Positions 27,900 to 38,786 of a stretch of DNA of 64,000 bases are shown in pieces; position 1 is the first letter of the stretch; the number at the start of each line of letters is the position of its first letter. The notes below the pieces were generated by a model, which did not search any database, was not told the origin of the DNA, and worked only from the letters and a program-made list of their open reading frames with translations. The translations under genes and the position numbers were made by a program. This DNA is from Actinomycetes bacterium (GTDB lineage Bacteria > Actinomycetota > Thermoleophilia > RBG-16-64-13). The DNA lies in NCBI GenBank assembly GCA_024637095.1, contig JAGXFV010000049.1, forward strand, positions 1 to 64,000. Reading direction: 5' to 3'.

Positions 27900-27984
27900 T
27901 AGATCGCAGGATCAACGGCCCGACGAAGGTCCCAGAACCAGGGGGTTGCGGGGAGAGGCGGGACGAACTCAATATCGACGAAGC

Positions 27985-28110
27985 TTTCCGAGCTGTTCGG
28001 CGCAGAGCGCCCGCAGCTAACGAGAGGCAAGTCCGGTTAGAATCCGGCGCGGTCCCGCCACTGTAAGTGCCTCACGCACGAGCCAGAAAACTCTCCGGGA
28101 AGTCGTTTCG
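27985..28110 (+). ncRNA. Cobalamin riboswitch
   Basis: The core AAGTCCGGTTAGAATCCGG (about 28029-28047) followed by GCGGTCCCGCCACTGTAA (about 28048-28065) matches the conserved B12-box region of cobalamin riboswitches. A downstream GCCAGAAAACTCTCCGG fits the variant of the usual GCCAGGAGACCTGCC element. The 5' boundary is approximate. It lies in the leader of the RACE-MtrH-MtaA-corrinoid-protein operon. B12 binding would be expected to favour the terminator at 28117. Confidence 0.9.
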
Positions 28111-28116
28111 TATCCG

Positions 28117-28167: not shown

Positions 28168-28281
28168 TTCGTCGCCTCCTAGCTCCATCAACATCTCGAG
28201 ACCGCCCCTTTGTCCGGCGGCTCTCAGGGTCCTTCCCCTGTTATGGAAAGAGCGAGTAGATGCCAGGAAGGGAGAAAGCTT

Positions 28282-30276
28282 TTGAGCGAAAAGAAGATGT
28301 TCACCGTGATTTTCCAGCCCTCGGGAAGCCGGGGCAAGGTTGAGGAGGGAACCCCGGTTCTGCAGGCAGGACGGGATCTCGGTGTCGAAATCGAAGCCAT
28401 CTGCGGCGAGAAGCGAACCTGCGGCAAGTGTAAGATCCGTGTCGAAGAAGGCTTTTTCGAGCGCTACGGAATCGAATCCGCGGCGGACCACGTCTCCAAG
28501 TGGCGGCCGGTCGAAGAGAAATTCATCAATGAAAAGCGCCGCGAAGAGGGCTACCGGCTGAGCTGTGTGGCCAAAGTCGACGGCGATCTGGTCATCTTCG
28601 TCCCCGAGGAAAGCCGCTCCGGCGGCCAGGTGGTGCGCAAGGCCGCCACCGACCGTAAGATCGAGGTCAACCCGTCGATTAACACCTACTACGTCGAGTT
28701 GGTCCCCCCCACCCTCCACGATCCGCTGGGCGACTATGAGCGCATGGTCGAGGGACTCAAGGAGCAGCACGGTCTCGAAGAGCGGCCCAGGATCGACTAT
28801 CAGGTGCTGCGTACGTTGCCCGACGTCATCCGCGAGGCTCACTGGAAGGTCTCGGTTGCCATCTGGGACGGTGACGGCTTCCCGGAGATCGTAAAAGTGA
28901 CCCCGGGTAAGGTCGAGCGCAGCCTCGGGCTTGCCGTGGACGTGGGTACTACCACGGTCGCCGCCTACCTTTGTGACCTGCACACGGGTGAGGTGCTGAA
29001 CACCGACTCCATGATGAACCCGCAGGTACCTTACGGCGAAGATGTGATGAGCCGGATCACCTACGCGATGTCCCACCCCGAGGACGGCATCAAGAAGTTG
29101 CAGGACGCCATCATCGAGGGCATCAACACGATCGCGGCCCGGGTTACTGAGGCGGTTGGCTTCACCCATCGCGACATCCTCGAGATGACGATCGTGTTCA
29201 ACACCGCCATGCACCACTGCTTCCTAGGGATCTACCCTGAGCATCTGGGTCTGGCTCCATACGCCCCGGCGTTGCACCATTCGATGAACATCAAGGCGCG
29301 AGATCTCAAGCTGGACTTCGCTCTAGGTGCCAACGTGTTCGTGCTGCCCAACGAAGCCGGCTTCGTTGGCGCGGATAACGTCGGTGTGCTTATCGCCGAA
29401 GCGCCGTACAACCAGGACGAGAAAGTGCTGATCATCGACATCGGCACCAACGGCGAGCTCATCATGGGCAACCGGCAAGAGCTGATCTCCTCGTCCTGCG
29501 CTACGGGTCCCGCGCTCGAAGGCGCGCACATCAAGTACGGGATGCGGGCGGCTCCGGGAGCGATCGAGAGGATCTACATCAATCCGGAGACCAAAGAGCC
29601 GCGCTACAAGGTGATCGGCAAGGAAGAATGGTCCGATCAGATTCCGCAGGGAGAAATCGGCACCAAGGGCATCTGCGGCTCGGGCATCATCGATGCCATC
29701 GCCGAACTCTTCAAGGCCGGCATCATCGACAAGACCGGCAAGTTCGTCAAGGGTATGGACGAGCAGTACGAGCGGATCCGCAGAGGCGACGACGGCATGG
29801 AATACGTGCTGGCCTGGGCCGATGAGACCTCGATCCACCAAGACGTGGTCATCACTATCAAGGACGTCCGTTCGGTACAGCTTGCCAAGGGCGCGCTCTA
29901 CGCCGGCGCCAAGATCATGATGCAGAAGCTCGGGTACGAGTCGCTGGACAAGGTCATTCTGGCCGGCGCCTTCGGTTCGTTCATCGACCGGGAGGAATCC
30001 CTTGTAATCGGGATGTTCCCCGACGTGCCTATCGCCAAAGCCTACGCGGTCGGTAACGCGGCCGGCGACGGTGCCCGGATGGCTCTGCTCGACAAGAGCA
30101 AGCGTGCCGAAGCCGACGAATGGGCCCGCAAGGTCGAATACATCGAGCTCTCGGTGGAGCCGAAGTTCGAGAAGGAATTCATGATGGCGATGCATCTGCC
30201 GCACATGAAGGACAAGTTCGGACACTTGGCGGAAGGTCTGGAAGGCGAAGGCCTCGACGGACTCGTCAAGGCTTAA
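28282..30276 (+). CDS. Reductive activator of corrinoid proteins (RACE)
   Basis: A 664-residue ASKHA-type activator that uses ATP to return inactive cob(II)alamin in corrinoid proteins to cob(I)alamin. An N-terminal [2Fe-2S] ferredoxin-like domain has Cys in ICGEKRTCGKCKIRV and a later LSCVAKVDGDLVIF. The ATPase part carries LAVDVGTTTVAAYLCDL, IDIGTNGELIMG and ILAGAFGSFIDREES. TTG at 28282 is chosen because GGGAG lies 8 nt upstream; ATG 28297 is possible. First gene after the cobalamin riboswitch and 14 nt before the MtrH-like gene. Confidence 0.93.
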   Translation: MSEKKMFTVIFQPSGSRGKVEEGTPVLQAGRDLGVEIEAICGEKRTCGKCKIRVEEGFFERYGIESAADHVSKWRPVEEKFINEKRREEGYRLSCVAKVDGDLVIFVPEESRSGGQVVRKAATDRKIEVNPSINTYYVELVPPTLHDPLGDYERMVEGLKEQHGLEERPRIDYQVLRTLPDVIREAHWKVSVAIWDGDGFPEIVKVTPGKVERSLGLAVDVGTTTVAAYLCDLHTGEVLNTDSMMNPQVPYGEDVMSRITYAMSHPEDGIKKLQDAIIEGINTIAARVTEAVGFTHRDILEMTIVFNTAMHHCFLGIYPEHLGLAPYAPALHHSMNIKARDLKLDFALGANVFVLPNEAGFVGADNVGVLIAEAPYNQDEKVLIIDIGTNGELIMGNRQELISSSCATGPALEGAHIKYGMRAAPGAIERIYINPETKEPRYKVIGKEEWSDQIPQGEIGTKGICGSGIIDAIAELFKAGIIDKTGKFVKGMDEQYERIRRGDDGMEYVLAWADETSIHQDVVITIKDVRSVQLAKGALYAGAKIMMQKLGYESLDKVILAGAFGSFIDREESLVIGMFPDVPIAKAYAVGNAAGDGARMALLDKSKRAEADEWARKVEYIELSVEPKFEKEFMMAMHLPHMKDKFGHLAEGLEGEGLDGLVKA

Positions 30277-30290
30277 GGGGGGTTCAACAA

Positions 30291-31280
30291 ATGGCAGATG
30301 CTACAGGCTCAGGATCCAAGATGTTCAACTTCGACACAGAGCAGAAGGTGTTCGAGATCGCAGGGATCAAGGTGGGCGGGCAGCCGGGGGTCAATCCTCC
30401 CCTGCTCATTCCCTCCATGTTCCAGAAGGGCGATCCGGCCATCGAAAGTCGCCGGCAGCGCAAGTTCAATAAGCAGTTGGCCGGGGACAACATCAAGCGG
30501 ATGGAAGAACTGTCCGAGATGACCGGCATGCCCGCACTGGTGGCGATGGTGGCCAATCAGGGCGAAGAGATGAAGAACTACATCGACTTCTACGTGGAGG
30601 CCACTGATCTTCCTTTCGCTATCGACATGTGGAACCTGGATCCTCGGATGGAGGCCACCAAGTACGTGGCCGAGCAGGGACTGCAGGACCGACTCCTCTA
30701 CAACTCCGTTACGGTGTGGAGCCCGGACGTACCTGCCGAGGTCGAGCTGATCAAGGAACTCGGCGTGAAGCACGTGGTCACAGTGGTCATGGACATGGTC
30801 AACCAGACCCCCAGCGGTCGCCTGAGCTCTCTCGACGATATGTTGGACAAGATGAAGCCCGGTGAGTTCGAGAGCATCCTGGTAGACACCTCGGTCATGA
30901 ACCTGCCGGCCACCGGCATATGTGCCCTGGCCAACCGGTTGGTCAAGGAGAAGTACGGGCTACCCGCCGGTGCAGCATCGGCCAACGGCACTTATATGTG
31001 GCAGAAGTCGACCTACCGGGACAATAGGGAGAAGTGGGGCGAGAACGCATTCGTCGGCCTCGACGCCGGCACGCACGCCGCCTCGGTAGCCCTTTGGGGC
31101 GACTTCATCTTCAGCGGCCCGATGTGGGGCATTGACTCGGTCTTCCCGGCCGTGGCCGCCGCGCACTCGATGGTCAGCCTGATGAACTGGGCGGAGACGG
31201 GTGAACTGACTCAAAACGAGTCGACGCCCCTACACAAGTTGTGGCCGGATTATGTCAAGACACTCAAGGGTGAAGAGTAA
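30291..31280 (+). CDS. MtrH-family methyltransferase (corrinoid to pterin)
   Basis: A 329-residue protein related to tetrahydromethanopterin S-methyltransferase subunit H. It starts MFNFDTEQKVFEIAGIKVGG after a short leader, the family N-terminus, and keeps ELSEMTGMPALVAMVANQGEE and the TIM-barrel pattern. In bacterial corrinoid systems these enzymes move the methyl group from methyl-corrinoid protein to tetrahydrofolate. Spacing to RACE is 14 nt. The pterin acceptor (tetrahydrofolate) is inferred. Confidence 0.88.
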   Translation: MADATGSGSKMFNFDTEQKVFEIAGIKVGGQPGVNPPLLIPSMFQKGDPAIESRRQRKFNKQLAGDNIKRMEELSEMTGMPALVAMVANQGEEMKNYIDFYVEATDLPFAIDMWNLDPRMEATKYVAEQGLQDRLLYNSVTVWSPDVPAEVELIKELGVKHVVTVVMDMVNQTPSGRLSSLDDMLDKMKPGEFESILVDTSVMNLPATGICALANRLVKEKYGLPAGAASANGTYMWQKSTYRDNREKWGENAFVGLDAGTHAASVALWGDFIFSGPMWGIDSVFPAVAAAHSMVSLMNWAETGELTQNESTPLHKLWPDYVKTLKGEE

Positions 31281-31317
31281 ACCCGGCCAAACGAGCGAAA
31301 AGGAGCAGGACGAACAC

Positions 31318-32361
31318 ATGACTATGACGCACAAGGAACGGGTTCTCAAGACGATCAAAGGGGAGCCGGTCGATAAGATGCCGGCGTTCACCGGGTTCGG
31401 CGCGGTCCTCGTCGAGGGGCTGGAGAAGTACGGTCTGCGCTTTGCCCATGTCCACCTGGACGCGGACGAAATGGCCAAGGCTGCAGCGGCGACGAGCGAG
31501 TTGGCCGGCCTCGAGGCAATCGTGGTGCCGTTCGACATGGGCGTGGAGGCCGAAGCTCTGGGCGCTACGCTCAACACCTACCCGCACTCCGAGGACCTTC
31601 TCTACCCCACGCTGCGCGACAAGTTCGTGCATACGGCGGATGACATCAACCTGCCCGCGGACATCGCGAACGCGGGTCGCGTGCCCCTGGTGACAGAGGC
31701 CATCAAGAAGCTCAAAGAGCAGTACGGCGAAGAATACGCCGTGGCGTCCTGGGTGCTCGGTCCCTTCACCTTGGCCGGCCAGGTGATGGACCTGAACGAA
31801 CTGCTGAAAATGAGCTTCAAGGAGCCGGAAAAGGCTAACGCCATCCTCGACAAGCTGAGCGACATGATCATCGGTGTGGGTAAGGCCTATATCGCCGCCG
31901 GTGCGGACTACCTCTCGCTCCGCGAGATGGGAGCCACCTCCGACGTGCTCTCGCCTCGGGCCTACAAGAAGCAAATCAAGGGCTTCTCGCAACGCATCGT
32001 CGAGGAACTGAAGGCAACGGGCGTGCCCATCGTCTACCATATCTGTGGCGACACCAACATGATCATCGAGGATATGGCGGAACTCGGTGCCGACGCGGTC
32101 TCTGTGGACCAAAAGAACGACCTCAAGGCCAGCCGGGAGAAGCTGGGCGACGAGGTGGTCCTTCTCGGCAACATAAATCCCTGGGATGTTTTCACCCAAG
32201 GGAGCAAGGAAGACGTTCAGCGCGAGGTTAGGGCGTCAGTGGAGGCGGGCGCGGACGCGGTCTGGCCCGGCTGCGACATCTGGCCGACCACTTCGACCGC
32301 GAACATCAAGACCTGGGTGGAAACCAGCCACGAGCTGACACCTCGGCGGAACGGCGCCTAG
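31318..32361 (+). CDS. MtaA/UroD-family corrinoid methyltransferase (Cys form)
   Basis: A 347-residue uroporphyrinogen-decarboxylase-fold methyltransferase. The zinc ligands of the MtaA/MtbA type are present: His and Cys in YHICGD near residue 241, and the C-terminal Cys in WPGCDIWPTTSTANIK near 322. Such enzymes activate a thiol or transfer methyl groups to or from a corrinoid protein. It lies between the MtrH-like gene and the corrinoid protein. It is the internal control for the Sec-containing relative at 34140, where the C-terminal Cys position is TGA. Confidence 0.88.
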   Translation: MTMTHKERVLKTIKGEPVDKMPAFTGFGAVLVEGLEKYGLRFAHVHLDADEMAKAAAATSELAGLEAIVVPFDMGVEAEALGATLNTYPHSEDLLYPTLRDKFVHTADDINLPADIANAGRVPLVTEAIKKLKEQYGEEYAVASWVLGPFTLAGQVMDLNELLKMSFKEPEKANAILDKLSDMIIGVGKAYIAAGADYLSLREMGATSDVLSPRAYKKQIKGFSQRIVEELKATGVPIVYHICGDTNMIIEDMAELGADAVSVDQKNDLKASREKLGDEVVLLGNINPWDVFTQGSKEDVQREVRASVEAGADAVWPGCDIWPTTSTANIKTWVETSHELTPRRNGA

Positions 32362-32373
32362 AGATAGACTATC

Positions 32374-32396
32374 GGCCCCGGCCTCAGGCCGGGGCC
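32374..32396. repeat. Intercistronic hairpin before the corrinoid-protein gene
   Basis: GGCCCCGGCC and GGCCGGGGCC form a perfect 10-bp stem around a TCA loop. There is no T-run. It may stabilise or attenuate the mRNA between the MtaA-like gene and the corrinoid protein gene. Confidence 0.6.
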
Positions 32397-32433
32397 CCGG
32401 TATCCAAGAGAACACGTAAAGGGAGAACAACAC

Positions 32434-33099
32434 ATGGGATCCGACGAGCGCAAGCAGGAACTTTTCGGCAAGATGAAGGAAGGCGTCATCGAGTACGACG
32501 AAGACCAAGTCGTCGAGGCCGCCAATGCCCTGGTCGACGAAGGCTTCGATGCCTACGAGGGCATCATGGACGGCCTGGCCGCCGGCATGGAAGTCGTCGG
32601 CGAACTGTTTGATAGTCAAGAGTACTTCGTTCCCGAAGTCCTGATGTGCGCCGACGCCCTGTACGCCGGCCTCGATATCCTGCGTCCCAGAGTGGACATG
32701 ACAGGCCGCGAGGCTGTCAAGGGCGAGGTAGTGATCGGTGTGGTCGAGGGCGACGTGCACGACATCGGCAAGAACCTCGTGAAGATGATGTTCGAGGTCG
32801 CCGGCTTCACCGTACACGACCTGGGCGCGGACGTGCCGATCGACGAGTTCGTAGAGAAGCAGATCAACACCAACTCGGACATCGTGGCCTTGTCCGCCAT
32901 GATGACCACCACCATGATGGGTATGAAGAAAGCCATCGTGAAGCTGAAGGAAAAGAACCCGGACGTCATGATCATGCTGGGCGGCGCCCCGGTTACCGGC
33001 GAGATCGCCGACATGTTCGGTGCGGATGGCTACTCCGAGAACGCCTCCAACGCGGTTTCCGAGGCGATCAAGATGGTGGCTGCACTCCGCAAGATGTAG
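32434..33099 (+). CDS. Methyl-accepting corrinoid protein (MtbC/MttC-like)
   Basis: A 221-residue B12-binding protein. The N-terminal helical cap domain spans about residues 1-90. The Rossmann-like cobalamin domain starts KGEVVIGVVEGDVHDIGKNL, with the lower-axial-ligand His in DxHxxG, followed by LSAMMTTTMMGMKKAI and MLGGAPVTGEIADMFGADGY. It shuttles the methyl group between the methyltransferases and is reactivated by RACE. Strong hairpins lie on both sides of the gene. Confidence 0.95.
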   Translation: MGSDERKQELFGKMKEGVIEYDEDQVVEAANALVDEGFDAYEGIMDGLAAGMEVVGELFDSQEYFVPEVLMCADALYAGLDILRPRVDMTGREAVKGEVVIGVVEGDVHDIGKNLVKMMFEVAGFTVHDLGADVPIDEFVEKQINTNSDIVALSAMMTTTMMGMKKAIVKLKEKNPDVMIMLGGAPVTGEIADMFGADGYSENASNAVSEAIKMVAALRKM

Positions 33100-33113: not shown

Positions 33114-33144
33114 GGCGGCCGGCGGACAAAAGCCGCCGGCCGCC
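33114..33144. repeat. Intercistronic hairpin after the corrinoid-protein gene
   Basis: GGCGGCCGGCGG and CCGCCGGCCGCC form a perfect 12-bp stem around ACAAAAG, 15 nt after the stop codon. No T-run follows; it may protect the upstream mRNA. Confidence 0.65.
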
Positions 33145-33179
33145 GCGAACGGGGGGGCTGTTTAATCAGACACGGGCCT

Positions 33180-33914
33180 TTGGCACTCGTAGACCGTCGG
33201 ACCGGACTGGTCGAGACGATAGAGGAACTCGCACTGGATTGCGGCGTGGATGTCTTGGGCTTTGGGGACGTGAGCGAGGCCCTCCCCCCGGGTTTCGCTC
33301 ATCTTCCCGTTGGAGTCTCGGTCGGAGTGGCCCTCGGGCAGAGCCCTGGTGGCCCTGCCCGTTACGATCACCGCGACGCCCAGATACAGAGCATTCTGGA
33401 TGAGGCCCTTAGGGAGATCGCTGCCTTCCTCCGCTTGCGAGCGTACCGGTATTTCTGCTGTCCCGCCGAGTGCGACCCCATGGAATCACCGTTCACCGCC
33501 CGGATGGCGCATCGGTTCTCTCACAAGGCTGCGGCGACTTGCGCGGGCCTCGGCTGGGTTGGACGCAACGGGCTGTTGATCCACCCCGAGCTCGGTCCCT
33601 ACGTGTCCTGGGCCACGGTTGTCACGAACGCGCCCTTGCCTCTGGGGGACCCGTGGATCGAAGGACAGTGTGGCAGTTGCACGGCCTGTGCCGAGGCCTG
33701 TCCCGCGGGGGCAATCAGCGGGAGGGTTTGGCGGAGGAGCCATGGCATGCGCCGATTGGTTGACGCCGACCGCTGCCGGGGCTCTTTGGACGTTGTGGAA
33801 AGGGAAACGGGCTCTCGCGTCTGCGGTCGGTGCGTAGTTGCCTGTGCGTCCGTCTATCGGGAGAAGAGCGCCGTTGGACGTACGGGCCTTGAGTTAGATT
33901 GGTCTAACCTATAA
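33180..33914 (+). CDS. QueG-like iron-sulfur protein
   Basis: A 244-residue protein similar to epoxyqueuosine reductase. It has the RFSHKAAATCAGLGWVGRNG and LLIHPELGPYVSWATVVTN segments and a ferredoxin-like cluster site CGSCTACAEACPAGAI plus CGRCVVACAS, enough for about two [4Fe-4S] clusters. QueG enzymes bind cobalamin, and QueG-like proteins occur in other corrinoid loci. The start is uncertain: TTG 33180 is the best placed, but no ribosome site is clear. It may donate electrons to corrinoid factors rather than make queuosine. Confidence 0.72.
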   Translation: MALVDRRTGLVETIEELALDCGVDVLGFGDVSEALPPGFAHLPVGVSVGVALGQSPGGPARYDHRDAQIQSILDEALREIAAFLRLRAYRYFCCPAECDPMESPFTARMAHRFSHKAAATCAGLGWVGRNGLLIHPELGPYVSWATVVTNAPLPLGDPWIEGQCGSCTACAEACPAGAISGRVWRRSHGMRRLVDADRCRGSLDVVERETGSRVCGRCVVACASVYREKSAVGRTGLELDWSNL

Positions 33915-34139: not shown

Positions 34140-35225
34140 ATGGGTAAGCAAGCTGTCTTGGATGCATACCAAGGCAAGTACACGCCAGTAGTGCCTTGGG
34201 TGCCGTATGTGGGTGTCCATGCGGGCTATCTGATCGGAGAGCCGGCGGACAAGCTCCTGCAGGACGCCGACCTGCTGGCCAAGGGCGTCCTGAACGCCGC
34301 CGAGCGCTACAATGCCGACGGCATTCCCCTCGCCTTTGACCTCGCCATCGAGGCCATGTCGATGGGTATCGAGGCGAAGTGGTTCCCGGACAATCCGCCG
34401 ACGGTGATCGACCATCCGCTGCAGCATAAGACCATGGCGGAAGCCGATCTGAAGGTGCCGGGCCCGAAAGATGGTCGCTGGCCGTTGATTATCGAGGCCG
34501 GCAAGAAGGTGAAGGAGCAACTCGGGGACCGTGCCCTGATCGGGTTGACCTGTGGTCCTCTGACCCTCGCCTCTCACCTGCGCGGCGCCAAATTCTTCAC
34601 GGACATGGTGAAGAAGCCCGAGTTGGCTGCCGAGATCATGGAGTTCGCGGCTCTCGTGACCAAAGAGTCGGCGCGAATCTACGCGGAAGAAATCGGCTGT
34701 GACATCGTCGCTTTGGTGGAACCCGTGGGTAGCCAGGTGCGCCCGGAGACGTACGACAAGTTCGTGATTCCCGCGTGCCAGCCGGCTCTCGAAACGATTC
34801 ACGCGGCCGACAAGGTCTCCGCCTTGTACATCTGCGGCGACGCCACCAAGATCGTCGAGAACATGATGTACACCGGCGCGCACGCCGTGTGCGTGGACGA
34901 GCAGCTCAACATGAACTACATCCGCGATTGCGCCCTCAAGTATGGTCGCGGTTTCGCCGGCAACCTCAAGCTGACCCTCGCCCTCTCCCTGGGTCTCGTC
35001 GACCCGCGTGAAGACGCTATCGTCAGCTTGGCGGCCGGTGGGAAGATCGGGTTCACCTTCTCCCCTGGCTGAGACATGCCTTACGACGTTCCAGTTGAGA
35101 ACGTGGATAAGGTTCTGGAAGCCAAGACCTGGTACGAGCAGTACTACGCCCATTACCCGAACGTGCCCTACCCGTCGATCGAGCCCAAGAAGACGCCGGC
35201 GGAACCGATCGTGGAGGTGAGCTAG
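34140..35225 (+). CDS. Selenocysteine-containing UroD/MtaA-family methyltransferase
   Basis: Read to the first TGA (35070-35072) this gives 310 residues ending GKIGFTFSPG. Read through the TGA as Sec it continues DMPYDVPVENVDKVLEAKTW and ends at TAG 35223, for 361 residues. SPG-U-D...P.ENV is the family's C-terminal zinc-ligand motif, with Cys replaced by Sec at residue 311; the relative at 31318 has PGCD there. The other ligand region is LYICGD: Cys is kept but the usual His is Tyr. AAGGAGG precedes ATG 34140. It is likely the substrate-facing methyltransferase of the locus; the substrate is unknown. No selenocysteine machinery genes are in the window. Confidence 0.88.
35070..35120 (+). promoter_or_regulatory. 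Sec TGA codon and candidate SECIS of the UroD-family gene
   Basis: TGA 35070-35072 is followed by AGAAC (35098-35102) pairing with GTTCT (35112-35116) around GTGGATAAG. The loop begins with G, 30 nt after the codon, inside the range used for bacterial SECIS models. A competing stem ACGTT/AACGT (35086/35100) exists. This is the weakest of the five SECIS candidates; the protein-level evidence is stronger. Confidence 0.5.
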
Positions 35226-35573
35226 TTGGCTGAAAACGACAAGATTGTTGTTGAAGTCCTGACACTAGACTCTCTGCAGTGACCGGCGTGCGGGTACATG
35301 GTCGATGTACTTAATTCACTGTCGCCGGAAGTCAAGGACATAATCGATTACAAAGAGTGGTCCATCAAGAACGCCGAAGGTATCGGCATGTTCATGGAAC
35401 GCAAAGGCCGCGTCCTGCCCACTCTTTGCATCGGGGAACAGCTCTGCTACGAGAGCGTCATCCCCACGATCGACGAGCTCTACGAGACGTTGATCGACAA
35501 CGCCAAGAGCGAAGAGCAGAAGACGATTCTCAAGACCTCGTACGACGAGTTCCTGGAGGAGTACAACAAGTAG
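35226..35573 (+). CDS. Thioredoxin-like selenoprotein 1 (UPAC motif)
   Basis: A 115-residue protein starting at TTG 35226, directly after the TAG of the previous gene, with GGAGGTGA five nt upstream. In-frame TGA at 35280 gives VVEVLTLDSLQ-U-PACGYMV, a UxxC redox site after the first beta strand, followed by LPTLCIGEQLCYESVIPT with the cis-Pro position of the thioredoxin fold. Without read-through only a start-less downstream fragment from 35298 remains. A textbook SECIS follows the TGA. Likely a thiol/selenol reductant or metal(loid)-handling protein for the neighbouring enzymes. Confidence 0.88.
35280..35310 (+). promoter_or_regulatory. Sec TGA codon and SECIS of thioredoxin-like selenoprotein 1
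   Basis: TGA 35280-35282 is followed by GTACAT (35294-35299), loop GGTCG (35300-35304) and ATGTAC (35305-35310), a perfect 6-bp stem. The loop starts 18 nt after the codon. Both loop sequence and spacing closely resemble the E. coli fdhF SECIS, whose loop is GGUCU. Confidence 0.88.
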
Positions 35574-35823: not shown

Positions 35824-36390
35824 ATGGCGGTTCGGCGCGTAGCGCTGCACGCCTGCGGGGGAATTACCCGCCCCGGCTCCACGGTCGCGCGGCTGGCGGT
35901 CTATTACGTCGCCGAGGAGTTGCTCCCCGAGAAGGCGCTGGTTTCCTGCGCTCCCGCCTTTCTCCGCGGAGTCGAGGAAGACGTTCTCATGGTGCAGAAG
36001 AGCCCCTCCATCGCCCTCGACGGTTGCGAATGGAGTTGCGGCACGAATCTGCTCTATCTGGCCGGCATCATCCCGGCCGCCCGCATCCTCATACCCGAAT
36101 ACGCGGAGGCTTGCGGGTACGATTTGACCCAGGTGAATCTGCGCTTCCCCACGGGAGTGGGCCGCGATCTGGCGTGGGCAGTCGCGGAGAGGATAGCCGC
36201 GATCGGCAGGGGTATGCTCGAACGGGGGAGCGACTATCGCTTCGAGCGGCCGGGGATCGTCCGCCGCCAGGGGGAGTGGTTCCGTCCGGCGCCCAATATG
36301 GAGGGGGCCTTGGAGTTCGTTCGTCTGGAGCCGGGAGTCTACCGGCCCGTGGGGATGCCGCCTCTTCCCGAAGAGTCAAGGGAGGCCTGA
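35824..36390 (+). CDS. DGC-domain putative metal-binding protein 1
   Basis: A 188-residue protein with the DGC-type putative zinc-binding pattern: an early ALHACGGITRPGSTVARLA, a Cys at LVSCAPAF, and ALDGCEWSCGTNLL near residue 65, plus Cys in EACGYDL. Its ATG overlaps the TGA of the preceding frame (tgATG). It is paralogous to the next gene. DGC proteins are of unknown function but have conserved cysteines suited to metal or thiol chemistry; context suggests handling of a metal(loid) or selenol intermediate. Confidence 0.78.
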   Translation: MAVRRVALHACGGITRPGSTVARLAVYYVAEELLPEKALVSCAPAFLRGVEEDVLMVQKSPSIALDGCEWSCGTNLLYLAGIIPAARILIPEYAEACGYDLTQVNLRFPTGVGRDLAWAVAERIAAIGRGMLERGSDYRFERPGIVRRQGEWFRPAPNMEGALEFVRLEPGVYRPVGMPPLPEESREA

Positions 36391-36395
36391 GCGCT

Positions 36396-37013
36396 GTGGT
36401 GGAGAAGGTCACTGTCTTTCCGTGTGGCGGAATCGGGGACCCGGTTTCCTCGGTGACCCGGCTGGCCGGTTATCTGCTGGCCGAGGATCTGCTGCCGGGC
36501 CGGGTGGAGTTGGTATCCATACCGCCGGTAGTAACCGGCGTCCCCGACGAACTGCGGTTGGTGCAGGAGTATCCGGTGATCGTTCTCGACGGCTGCTCGC
36601 ACCGGTGCGGGTCGAACGCGCTCAACCTGGTTGGGATTCGCCCCGCGGCGCGACTGCTGACTCCGCGCATTCGCAGCCAGACGAAGCACGCGGTCGGCCG
36701 ACGCCGTCCGTATCCGGAGACCTCGGGTCAAAAGCTGGCCAAGGCCCTGGCGGAGAAGGCCGCGGCTGTGGCTCTCGGTATGCTCGAGGATGAGTCCTAC
36801 GCCTTCGAGACTCAGCGGGTGAGCCCAAACCCCGAAGGGTTGATCGACGACACCTTCGACATCGAACGGGGCCTTGGCTATGAGGAAGTGCAGGTCGGCT
36901 GCTTCCATTGCAGCGGCATGTGCGCGTTCAAGCTCAAGGACGATCCGGAGTTGCGGCGCAGGTTGGAAGAAGAGGTCGCGGAGTTCGAGCGCCTGGAGGA
37001 TATCGAATGCTAG
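36396..37013 (+). CDS. DGC-domain putative metal-binding protein 2
   Basis: A 205-residue paralogue of the preceding gene: VFPCGGIGDPVSSVTRLAGY, LDGCSHRCGSNALNLVG, and an additional C-terminal VGCFHCSGMCAFKL cysteine cluster absent from the first copy. GTG 36396 (or 36399) follows GGGAGG. The last 7 nt overlap the following selenoprotein gene, so translation is coupled. Function unknown; the extra CxxCxxxC suggests a second metal or Fe-S site. Confidence 0.78.
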   Translation: MVEKVTVFPCGGIGDPVSSVTRLAGYLLAEDLLPGRVELVSIPPVVTGVPDELRLVQEYPVIVLDGCSHRCGSNALNLVGIRPAARLLTPRIRSQTKHAVGRRRPYPETSGQKLAKALAEKAAAVALGMLEDESYAFETQRVSPNPEGLIDDTFDIERGLGYEEVQVGCFHCSGMCAFKLKDDPELRRRLEEEVAEFERLEDIEC

Positions 37014-37243
37014 ACGAAGGTCCCCAAGGCCCTTTCAAACTACGGCTGATGGGTTGAGTGACCTGCGGGCCGGCCGTGCGCCGGGTTCTCGAGGATTCGC
37101 TCGAGGTCGAGTTGGTCGAGATGGTCTGGGAGGAGCACTGGGCCGACGTCCGTTTTGCCTCGCCGGAGTTCGGCGTGGAGGAATTGCGGATGCGGCTCGT
37201 GCCCGCGGGCGCCTGGTGCGGCCCCTGGCCGGAAGAGGCCTAA
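37007..37243 (+). CDS. Small selenoprotein with UVTC motif
   Basis: A 78-residue protein. ATG 37007 lies inside the end of the DGC gene with GGAGG at 8-9 nt. In-frame TGA 37055-37057 read as Sec gives FKLRLMG-U-VTCGPAVRRVLED, a UxxC site at the start of a helix as in redox-active folds, then ends with RLVPAGAWCGPWPEEA. Codon use around the TGA is continuous. A SECIS-like stem follows at the same spacing as in the thioredoxin-like genes. I do not recognise the family beyond this. Confidence 0.78.
37055..37084 (+). promoter_or_regulatory. Sec TGA codon and SECIS of the UVTC protein
   Basis: TGA 37055-37057 is followed by CCGGC (37070-37074), loop CGTGC (37075-37079) and GCCGG (37080-37084). 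The loop begins 18 nt after the codon, exactly as in the 35280 and 35706 elements. G is the second loop base. Confidence 0.68.
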
Positions 37244-37272: not shown

Positions 37273-37569
37273 ATGCTGACGGTCCAGGTTATTTCCGAGG
37301 GCGGGCACTGCGTTCCCTGAATCATGGCGATCGAGGCCACCAGGGAGGTGGCTGCGGAATTCGGCCAGGCGGCCGTGAAGGTGGAGGTGGTCACCCTCAA
37401 GGAAGCCGAGGGAGCCGCGCGCTACCGTGAGCTTCGGCGCCAGGCCGGCGAACACCTGCCGGTTCCCAGCGTGCTGGTGGAGGGGGCTCTGGCCTTTTCC
37501 GCCATCCCCGAGCCGGATGAGTTGCGTGAGGTTTTCCAGCGGGCGCTCTTCAAGCAAGGCGGCGACTAG
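37273..37569 (+). CDS. Thioredoxin-like selenoprotein 3 (CVPU motif)
   Basis: A 98-residue protein from ATG 37273. In-frame TGA 37318-37320 read as Sec gives TVQVISEGGHCVP-U-IMAIEA, a CxxU site after beta strand 1 and before a helix. Later HLPVPSVLVEGALAFSAIPE has the cis-Pro strand of a thioredoxin fold. Only a downstream fragment is visible if the TGA is taken as stop. The end overlaps the GTG of the next gene by one base (TAGTG). The reversed order (CxxU against UxxC in the other copies) suggests a distinct redox role. Confidence 0.85.
37318..37352 (+). promoter_or_regulatory. Sec TGA codon and SECIS of the CVPU protein
   Basis: TGA 37318-37320, then GCCACC (37336-37341), loop AGGGA (37342-37346) and GGTGGC (37347-37352), a perfect 6-bp stem. 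The loop starts 22 nt after the codon and has G at position two. Confidence 0.72.
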
Positions 37570-38786
37570 TGCTCTACCTCGAAGGCTTCTACGGGCAGCG
37601 CGTGCGTGTGCCTGAGGACCGCCGCTACGATCCTGAGCGCGAACTCTGGCTGCTCGAGGGGGACGGCCGGGTGGTTCTGGGACTCACCCACGCAGGCGTT
37701 GTGTTGTCCGGGGGAATCGAGGACCTCATGCTCGAGGCGGAGGTCGGCCAGGACATCACTGTTGGCGAGCGACTGCTATCGGTCGAAGCGTACAAGGCAG
37801 CCCAGGAAATCACGTCACCGCTGGCCGGACGTCTGGTGGCGGTGAACCGGGAAGTACTGGACAACCCGGAATTGCTGGACGAAGATCCTTATGGAGTCGG
37901 CTGGCTTATGGAATTGAAGCCGAAGCCCGTGAGCGGCGCCACACTGGCCGGATTTCCCACCGCGAACGACTATCTGCGCGCGCTGGAGTCCTCCTGCGCG
38001 GCGACTGACGAGGGGGGCGTCACCGGGGAGTCGGATCTGGGAAACGCCTCGGGGGCTGGGGTCGAGAGCGTGGCCGGCGCTTCGCCCAAGGACGGCCTGT
38101 GCGCCGAGGTCAAACGTGCCACAGTCGCGGACTGCAGCGTCCCTGTTGCTCTCGCTCGCCTGGCTCCGGGAATGAAGGTGATCAATCTGGGGGCACGGGC
38201 CGGGGAAGACGCCGTACTCACCGGCGCGCGGGTAGGCCCGGAAGGGCGCGTCCTGGGAATCGTCCCGACCGACTCCATGCTCGAACGGGATCGGTTGGCG
38301 GCGACGGACGCCGGGCTCGAGAACGTGGAGTTTCGGTCGGGGGAGATCGAGCAGATCCCCGTAGTGGACGGGTGGGCGGATATGGTTATCGCCGGTTGCG
38401 CTGTTAACCTCTCGGCGCGTAAGGACCGGGCATTCGCCGAGGTCTTCCGGGTTCTCGGAGATGGCGGTCTGCTGGCGATCTCTGACATGGTTGTCATCAA
38501 ACCGCTTCCCCCTTTTCTCTCGCGAAATCGTGCGGCCCGCTCCAGTCTCTTAGCACACGCCGTCTCCTTGGAAAAGTATCTGGCGCTCATCGAGCGGGCG
38601 GGATTCATGCGCCCCAAGGTCGAGCAGCTCATCGAGTATTCGAGCGAGCAGTTGGAGACCCTGATGGGCATGGACCTGCGGTCCTTGGAATCGGAGGGCC
38701 GAATGGCAAAGGAGGACCTGGCGCTACTCGAGGGGCGTGTGGCGAGCGCCCACATTTTGGCGCTCAAGGTTCGCTGCAACTGCTAG
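37569..38786 (+). CDS. GcvH-like lipoyl domain fused to ArsM-like methyltransferase
   Basis: A 405-residue two-domain protein. Residues ~1-125 resemble glycine-cleavage H protein, with a candidate lipoyl Lys76 in SVEAYKAAQEITSPLAGRLV and the NPELLDEDPYGVGWL motif. After a linker, residues ~175-400 resemble arsenite methyltransferase: LAPGMKVINLGARAGEDAVL, VEFRSGEIEQIPVVDGWADM, IAGCAVNLSARKDRAFAEVF. The acidic SAM-ribose residue after motif I is replaced (GIVPTDSML), so catalytic competence is uncertain. The chain ends CNC. GTG 37569 overlaps the previous stop, and its stop shares CTAG with convergent rlmN. It may present a dithiol arm to a metal(loid) methyl intermediate. Confidence 0.82.
   Translation: MLYLEGFYGQRVRVPEDRRYDPERELWLLEGDGRVVLGLTHAGVVLSGGIEDLMLEAEVGQDITVGERLLSVEAYKAAQEITSPLAGRLVAVNREVLDNPELLDEDPYGVGWLMELKPKPVSGATLAGFPTANDYLRALESSCAATDEGGVTGESDLGNASGAGVESVAGASPKDGLCAEVKRATVADCSVPVALARLAPGMKVINLGARAGEDAVLTGARVGPEGRVLGIVPTDSMLERDRLAATDAGLENVEFRSGEIEQIPVVDGWADMVIAGCAVNLSARKDRAFAEVFRVLGDGGLLAISDMVVIKPLPPFLSRNRAARSSLLAHAVSLEKYLALIERAGFMRPKVEQLIEYSSEQLETLMGMDLRSLESEGRMAKEDLALLEGRVASAHILALKVRCNC

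Follow-up and report, generated by a model that had tools for sequence, protein, structure and literature searches.

The window, the whole stretch of 64,000 nucleotides analysed here (positions 1 to 64,000 of contig JAGXFV010000049.1), comes from an actinomycete genome assembled at 2.47 Mb in 49 contigs. On its forward strand lies an operon in which a corrinoid protein and a reductive activase (28210-33099) accompany a gene for a UroD/MtaA-fold protein with a single in-frame TGA, an arrangement that fits a corrinoid methyltransferase system (Table 1). The frame opens at ATG 34140, runs through 310 codons to TGA 35070-35072 (residue 311) and continues for 50 codons to TAG 35223-35225, which is directly abutted by the TTG start of the next gene at 35226. 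The initial annotation had carried the frame past the TGA to this stop and had stated that the relative encoded at 31318 has Cys at the same column (PGCDIWP); its coordinates, its reading and the Cys were all found to be correct. A candidate cobalamin riboswitch just upstream of the operon (27971-28114) scored 31.7 bits, barely over the 31.5-bit threshold, and no such riboswitch was found in six related loci.

Table 1. Genes and sequence features of the operon carrying the UroD/MtaA-fold selenoprotein gene (window coordinates)
Feature	Position	Strand	Evidence or remark
RACo-type corrinoid protein reductive activator	28210..30276	+	PF14574, PF17651, PF17650
MtrH/MtgA-like methyltransferase	30120..31280	+	PF02007; NF002142 above cut-off; true start probably near 30300
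Classical MtaA-like methyltransferase	31318..32361	+	HxC ... PGC motif; NF004889, TIGR01463 above cut-off
Corrinoid (B12-binding) protein	32434..33099	+	PF02310, PF02607
4Fe-4S protein	33138..33914	+	PF13484 and related models near or below cut-off; start uncertain
UroD/MtaA-fold protein with Sec311, 361 aa	34140..35222	+	TAG stop 35223-35225; PF01208 E 1.1e-44; structure match 4ay8/4ay7, Z 41
In-frame TGA read as selenocysteine	35070..35072	+	U 57, C 22, missing 3 in 82 aligned rows
SECIS-like hairpin ACGUUC-CAGUUGA-GAACGU	35086..35104	+	Loop begins 22 nt after U of UGA
Thioredoxin-like partner with UxxC (UPAC)	35226..35573	+	Own TGA 35280-35282; homologue present in 54 of 55 Sec loci
DGC-domain protein	35824..36390	+	PF08859; ordinary TGA stop
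Second DGC-domain protein	36390..37013	+	PF08859; start uncertain
GcvH-like/ArsM-like methyltransferase fusion, operon end	37569..38786	+	PF01597, PF13847; NF045810, NF008823 below cut-off

Homologues were collected by scanning a genome collection with a three-sequence alignment, which gave 518 relatives among at least 593 matched stretches. The best 80 of the 518 were kept and joined by one plasmid locus (L012), so that the locus set comprised 81 members and the alignment, with the window, 82 rows. TGA was present in 56 of the 81 loci and a Cys codon in 22, and three were cut by contig ends; all 78 loci that reach the Sec position have either TGA or Cys there and no other residue. Aligned with the window, these best 80 of 518 and L012 give U in 57 rows and C in 22, with 3 missing, so the Cys/Sec pairs that the initial annotation proposed to look for are indeed found at this column, although ratios drawn from the best 80 of 518 relatives are no census of the two forms. 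L018 (evidently the same species as G043) and the loci cut by contig ends (L067-L069) were excluded from the tree and from the folding and hairpin counts, and the neighbour counts (55 Sec and 22 Cys loci) do not include them either; L010, L011 and L013 were translated and left out of the comparisons. Among these best 80 of 518, the carriers are labelled as Actinomycetota, Bacillota, Thermodesulfobacteriota and other proteobacterial groups. They include the cultured species Desulfofundulus australicus and Desulfospira joergensenii. A phylum search of 396 genomes with P0001 returned one ortholog beyond the window's own genome and two weak relatives. In a quick tree of 79 rows, to which long-branch warnings apply, two Sec/Cys changes were needed, one of them in the group made up of L085 (Sec) and the Cys loci L072 and L077. 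Two of these three, L072 and L085, are records of one Clostridia genome, which thus holds one copy of each form, a natural pair for comparing the Cys with the Sec residue.

A standard ORF listing closes the frame at 35072, as would be expected if TGA 35070 were a normal stop, the product had 310 residues and the similarity further on were leftover sequence. We consider this extremely improbable, since none of the 79 rows that extend to the column has anything but TGA or Cys there, the Cys homologues run through in one frame, and protein-level conservation persists 3′ of the TGA. A genome of the same genus encodes a protein that is 97% identical and has its TGA at the corresponding codon, and the 50 codons that follow differ between the two species by three synonymous changes and one non-synonymous change. 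In an ungapped comparison with the window, the 28 codons 3′ of the TGA were protein-like in 12 of 13 Sec loci, L085 being too distant to judge. Homologues ending at SPG with no conservation beyond it, which the initial annotation had named as grounds for abandoning the idea, are contradicted by this coding-type conservation. Sequencing error at the TGA is ruled out by the same TGA in 57 of the 82 aligned rows. Decoding of the TGA as another amino acid such as Trp, through a code change or leaky readthrough, gained no supporting point and seems just as remote: the homologues have Cys and never Trp, tRNA-Sec, SelA and SelB are present, and TGA 36388-36390 is the ordinary stop of a DGC gene of the same operon, so that there is no genome-wide change of the code.

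In the window's genome, tRNA-Sec, SelB and SelA were matched above their cut-offs. In a comparison covering 49 of the 80 scan loci (best 80 of 518), genomes with the Sec form passed the SelA cut-off in 28 of 29 cases and those with the Cys form in 3 of 20 (Fisher p 2.9e-9). In bacterial SECIS hairpins a G occupies one of the first two loop bases. Our strict rule demanded this G, an unbroken stem of 5 bp or more and a loop 16-37 nt from the UGA, and expected counts were obtained by exchanging codons synonymously. Among the best 80 of 518, with the window and L012, such a hairpin was found in 52 of the 56 Sec genes, where 11.5 would be expected, and in 1 of the 22 Cys genes, where 1.0 would be expected; because the rows are related, the 56 are not independent events. 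Folding energy behaves similarly, with a mean z of −0.91 in the 56 Sec genes and +0.31 in the 22 Cys genes. The window's own gene narrowly fails the strict rule, as do L014, L016 and L020; by eye all four have the hairpin at the same position and with the same type of stem, the G standing third in the loop, and in the minimum-energy fold of the window one extra bulged pair places the G second in an AGUU loop. Judged from sequence, the in-frame TGA pattern is far beyond chance, and 34140-35222 encodes a genuine selenoprotein, as indicated by the in-frame TGA facing Cys in homologues, the Sec machinery and the SECIS-like hairpin of most members.

The Sec protein belongs to the UroD superfamily, PF01208 matching it with 153.3 bits against a cut-off of 23.9. 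Its predicted structure (mean pLDDT 91.7) is closest to MtaA (4ay8/4ay7, Z 41 over 323 residues) and matches UroD with Z 36. It scores below the NCBI cut-offs for the MtaA families, including TIGR01463 (MtaA/CmuA; 120.8 versus 235.4 bits), and no model of NCBIfam release 20 claims it above cut-off. In the alignment with Methanosarcina mazei MtaA (4AY7), Sec311 falls on the Cys of PGC and Glu254 on the Glu of the VEE/VDE motif, while residues 230-232 align with HIC, reading YIC in the window and FIC in most members. The His of the zinc motif is thus replaced in 81 of 81 rows (Phe 75, Tyr 6), and Cys232, Glu254 and the 22-residue spacing between them are invariant in 81 of 81 (alignment based on the best 80 of 518). 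His27, His92 and His146 are also invariant in the Sec/Cys family and are absent from the window's classical MtaA-like protein.

The protein therefore departs from the MtaA-type His-x-Cys...Cys ligand set in that the His is lost, Cys232 is kept and the last Cys is Sec or Cys; His-Cys-Cys is the zinc set of the S-methyltransferases of the superfamily according to PMC10418091. A parallel is offered by MetE and the core methionine synthases, which share the ligand order H-C-E-C: the zinc ligands of the E. coli enzyme are His641, Cys643, Glu665 and Cys726, with the same spacing of 22 from Cys643 to Glu665 (PMC7857596). They differ from the present family, in which the His is replaced, the last Cys is Sec and the operon is corrinoid-linked. 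Since Cys232 and Glu254 match the MetE spacing and the His is gone, three of the four MetE-type ligands would persist, one of them as Sec. Via the PGC alignment with 4AY7, Sec311 corresponds to the position that holds the C-terminal zinc ligand in enzymes of the MetE/MtaA type. The placement of Sec at the C-terminal zinc-ligand Cys in the initial annotation is therefore sustained by the alignment, but its further idea of Sec as a zinc ligand was weakened, because the loss of the His argues against a normal zinc site; the retention of Cys232 and Glu254 leaves an altered Cys/Glu/Sec metal site possible.

A near-constant element of these loci is the thioredoxin-like partner, which the initial annotation had not noticed. 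Among the best 80 of 518 and L012, 54 of the 55 Sec loci have a thioredoxin-like gene 3′ of the Sec gene, and 21 of the 22 Cys loci have a homologous thioredoxin stretch at that place, in 20 of the 22 as an in-frame fusion with the UroD domain. No such partner was found around classical MtaA-like genes of the same phylum (0 of 30 control loci, with up to 1.5 kb of flank on each side). Of 56 Sec loci, 49 have a partner with CxxC and 5, all from Actinomycetota, one with UxxC, as the window also does; in the other 2 the motif pattern gave no match. The motifs seen are UPAC, CAAC and CAPC. This sets the partner apart from the HUIPC-motif thioredoxin-like selenoproteins (NF047660), whose model matches it only weakly (29.1 bits, cut-off 105 bits). 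Thioredoxin reductase occurs in 23 of the 55 Sec loci and two further thioredoxin-like genes in 26 and 27 of them.

Within 9 kb of the gene in the 55 Sec loci, we found a CobW-type GTPase in at least 45, RACo in at least 33, a corrinoid protein in at least 32, DUF2284 in at least 30, DUF6951 in at least 29, thioredoxin reductase in at least 23, an MtaA-like gene in at least 21 and an MtrH-like gene in at least 18; these counts are lower bounds because many contigs are short, and they come from related rows, not from 55 independent events. In the 24 Sec loci with long flanks, CobW was present in 22 and the corrinoid protein in 20. The 22 Cys loci have CobW in at least 19, a corrinoid protein in at least 18 and a homocysteine-methyltransferase-like gene in at least 12, and RACo, MtrH and classical MtaA were found in none of them. 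The CobW-type metal-chaperone family also adjoins mtaA-type genes according to PMC2770081. A search for CobW genes within 9 kb of the window's Sec gene gave no match, and the genome has eight matches elsewhere. In the related actinobacterial loci L014, L016 and L017 a CobW-type gene was matched upstream of the Sec gene, at a distance of about 2.7-2.8 kb.

Taken together, the best explanation is that the gene encodes a UroD/MtaA-fold, corrinoid-dependent methyltransferase selenoprotein in which Sec311 replaces the C-terminal metal-ligand Cys, a reading to which we assign a probability of roughly 0.75. We read it as an MtaA-like methyltransferase that may be kept reduced, or turned over, by its dedicated thioredoxin. 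The protein in its Sec or Cys form (UroD-U/C) would be the substrate-side enzyme (MT1), because it recurs across loci together with the corrinoid protein, whereas the second methyltransferase varies, being MtrH-like and MtaA-like in Sec loci and resembling homocysteine methyltransferases in Bacteroidota. UroD-U would then transfer methyl between its neighbour, the corrinoid protein, and a soft substrate (S, Se or metalloid); from the corrinoid protein the methyl might move on to folate or, in Bacteroidota, to homocysteine. The site is suited to soft atoms, and the substrate would be methylated sulfur, selenium or a metalloid. An acetyl-CoA synthase is present in the window's genome and is a possible use for methyl-THF.

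For the action of Sec311 we tentatively favour, at somewhat less than even odds, an altered three-ligand metal site without His formed by Cys232, Glu254 and Sec311, in which the partner thioredoxin might reduce an oxidation-prone Cys/Sec pair so that the metal and the substrate can bind. The main rival, to which we give a lower but still substantial chance, is a metal-free selenoprotein with a redox-active selenenylsulfide pair made up of Cys232 and Sec311; the enzyme's chemistry could be a reductive methyl or C-S/C-Se cleavage or involve a Se-methyl intermediate, with thioredoxin supplying electrons in every turnover in the manner of glycine reductase. Because the thioredoxin-like partner is near-constant, and fused in the Cys forms, a redox role of the Cys/Sec pair has to be taken seriously as an alternative, and the thioredoxin reductase and further thioredoxin-like genes in many Sec loci as well as the loss of the His ligand in all rows point in the same direction; CdmB, another methyltransferase of the UroD superfamily, works without zinc (PMC13222342). 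Metal-free catalysis would, however, have to account for the invariance of Glu254 and Cys232, which belong to a metal set of the MetE/MtaA type, and for the CobW-type metal-chaperone gene of most loci. It is also conceivable, if somewhat unlikely, that methyl transfer is obligatorily coupled to the Cys/Sec pair and the dedicated, often fused thioredoxin, as a reductive methyl transfer at a site derived from a His-less zinc centre, possibly via Se-methyl-selenocysteine; if true, this would give the UroD superfamily a catalytic mode new to it.

Methyl flow in the opposite direction, from methyl-THF through the corrinoid to UroD-U, would serve to methylate a toxic chalcogen or metalloid. In its favour, MtrH-type transfer is reversible in principle, and the DUF2284 neighbours, like the DGC and ArsM-like ones, hint at a handling of metals or metalloids. 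We consider this reverse flow unlikely, as the dedicated corrinoid activase and the acetyl-CoA synthase fit the use of methyl groups at least as well. A role in methanol use was not adopted: no MtaB was recognised among the ORFs listed around the D. australicus Sec gene (L027), which were read by eye. The Desulfofundulus methanol operon described in PMC11206085 includes a uroporphyrinogen decarboxylase and a P47K/CobW-type gene.

Among known systems, MtaA (4AY7/4AY8) is nearest in fold, and the positions of its Cys, its VEE/VDE Glu and its C-terminal PGC are equivalent to those of the Sec protein, which differs in having Phe/Tyr for the His of HxC, Sec for the C-terminal Cys and a thioredoxin partner. 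Glycine reductase is not known to share the UroD/MtaA fold. Its selenoproteins offer a parallel as a Sec enzyme fed by thioredoxin, in an unrelated reaction (PMC13188914). The type 1 mlp clusters likewise bring together MtaA-like proteins, a corrinoid protein and a reductive activase; they occur mostly in Sec-using anaerobes, and S/Se methyl chemistry has been proposed for them (Kountz and Balskus, PMC10418091). Their Mlps, however, are His-Cys-Cys (except several Mlps1), and Sec in Mlps is not noted in the available text of PMC10418091. Membership of the present operon in type 1 was rejected, as the definition given there bars a tetrahydrofolate methylase homologue within 20 kb and the MtrH/MtgA-like gene lies in the operon.

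We did not find a UroD/MtaA selenoprotein in the literature searched. It is absent from the May 2026 inventory of 119 prokaryotic selenoprotein families in section 7 of PMC13188914, whose table cites the families of Haft and Gwadz 2023, Haft and Tolstoy 2025 and Zhang and Gladyshev 2007, and a term search of the deep-Sep paper (PMC12013277) did not find one of UroD/MtaA type. The present gene thus adds a selenoprotein family to the UroD/MtaA methyltransferases, one that ordinary ORF listing truncates at the very residue of interest. By linking methyl-corrinoid chemistry to a thioredoxin, it makes selenium as metal ligand, nucleophile or redox group directly testable. With sulfate reducers and subsurface bacteria as carriers, the family may bear on the turnover of methylated sulfur, selenium or metalloids in anoxic sediments.

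It is worth adding that the surroundings hold further candidate selenoprotein genes and another UroD homologue. A small ORF of the same operon (37007-37243) has an in-frame TGA at 37055-37057 (MGUVTC) that is kept in L018 of the same genus. A thioredoxin-like ORF at 37273-37569 has CVPU with its TGA at 37318-37320, kept in L015 and L018; its apparent homologue in Desulfofundulus (L027:12738) has HCIPC, so this is probably another Cys/Sec pair, and the NCBI family name HUIPC places Sec at the first of the two positions, as against CVPU here. Past the end of the window, at G000:C24 67313-69740 in the same genome, lies another UroD homologue beside two CobW-type genes, one of them with an in-frame TGA.
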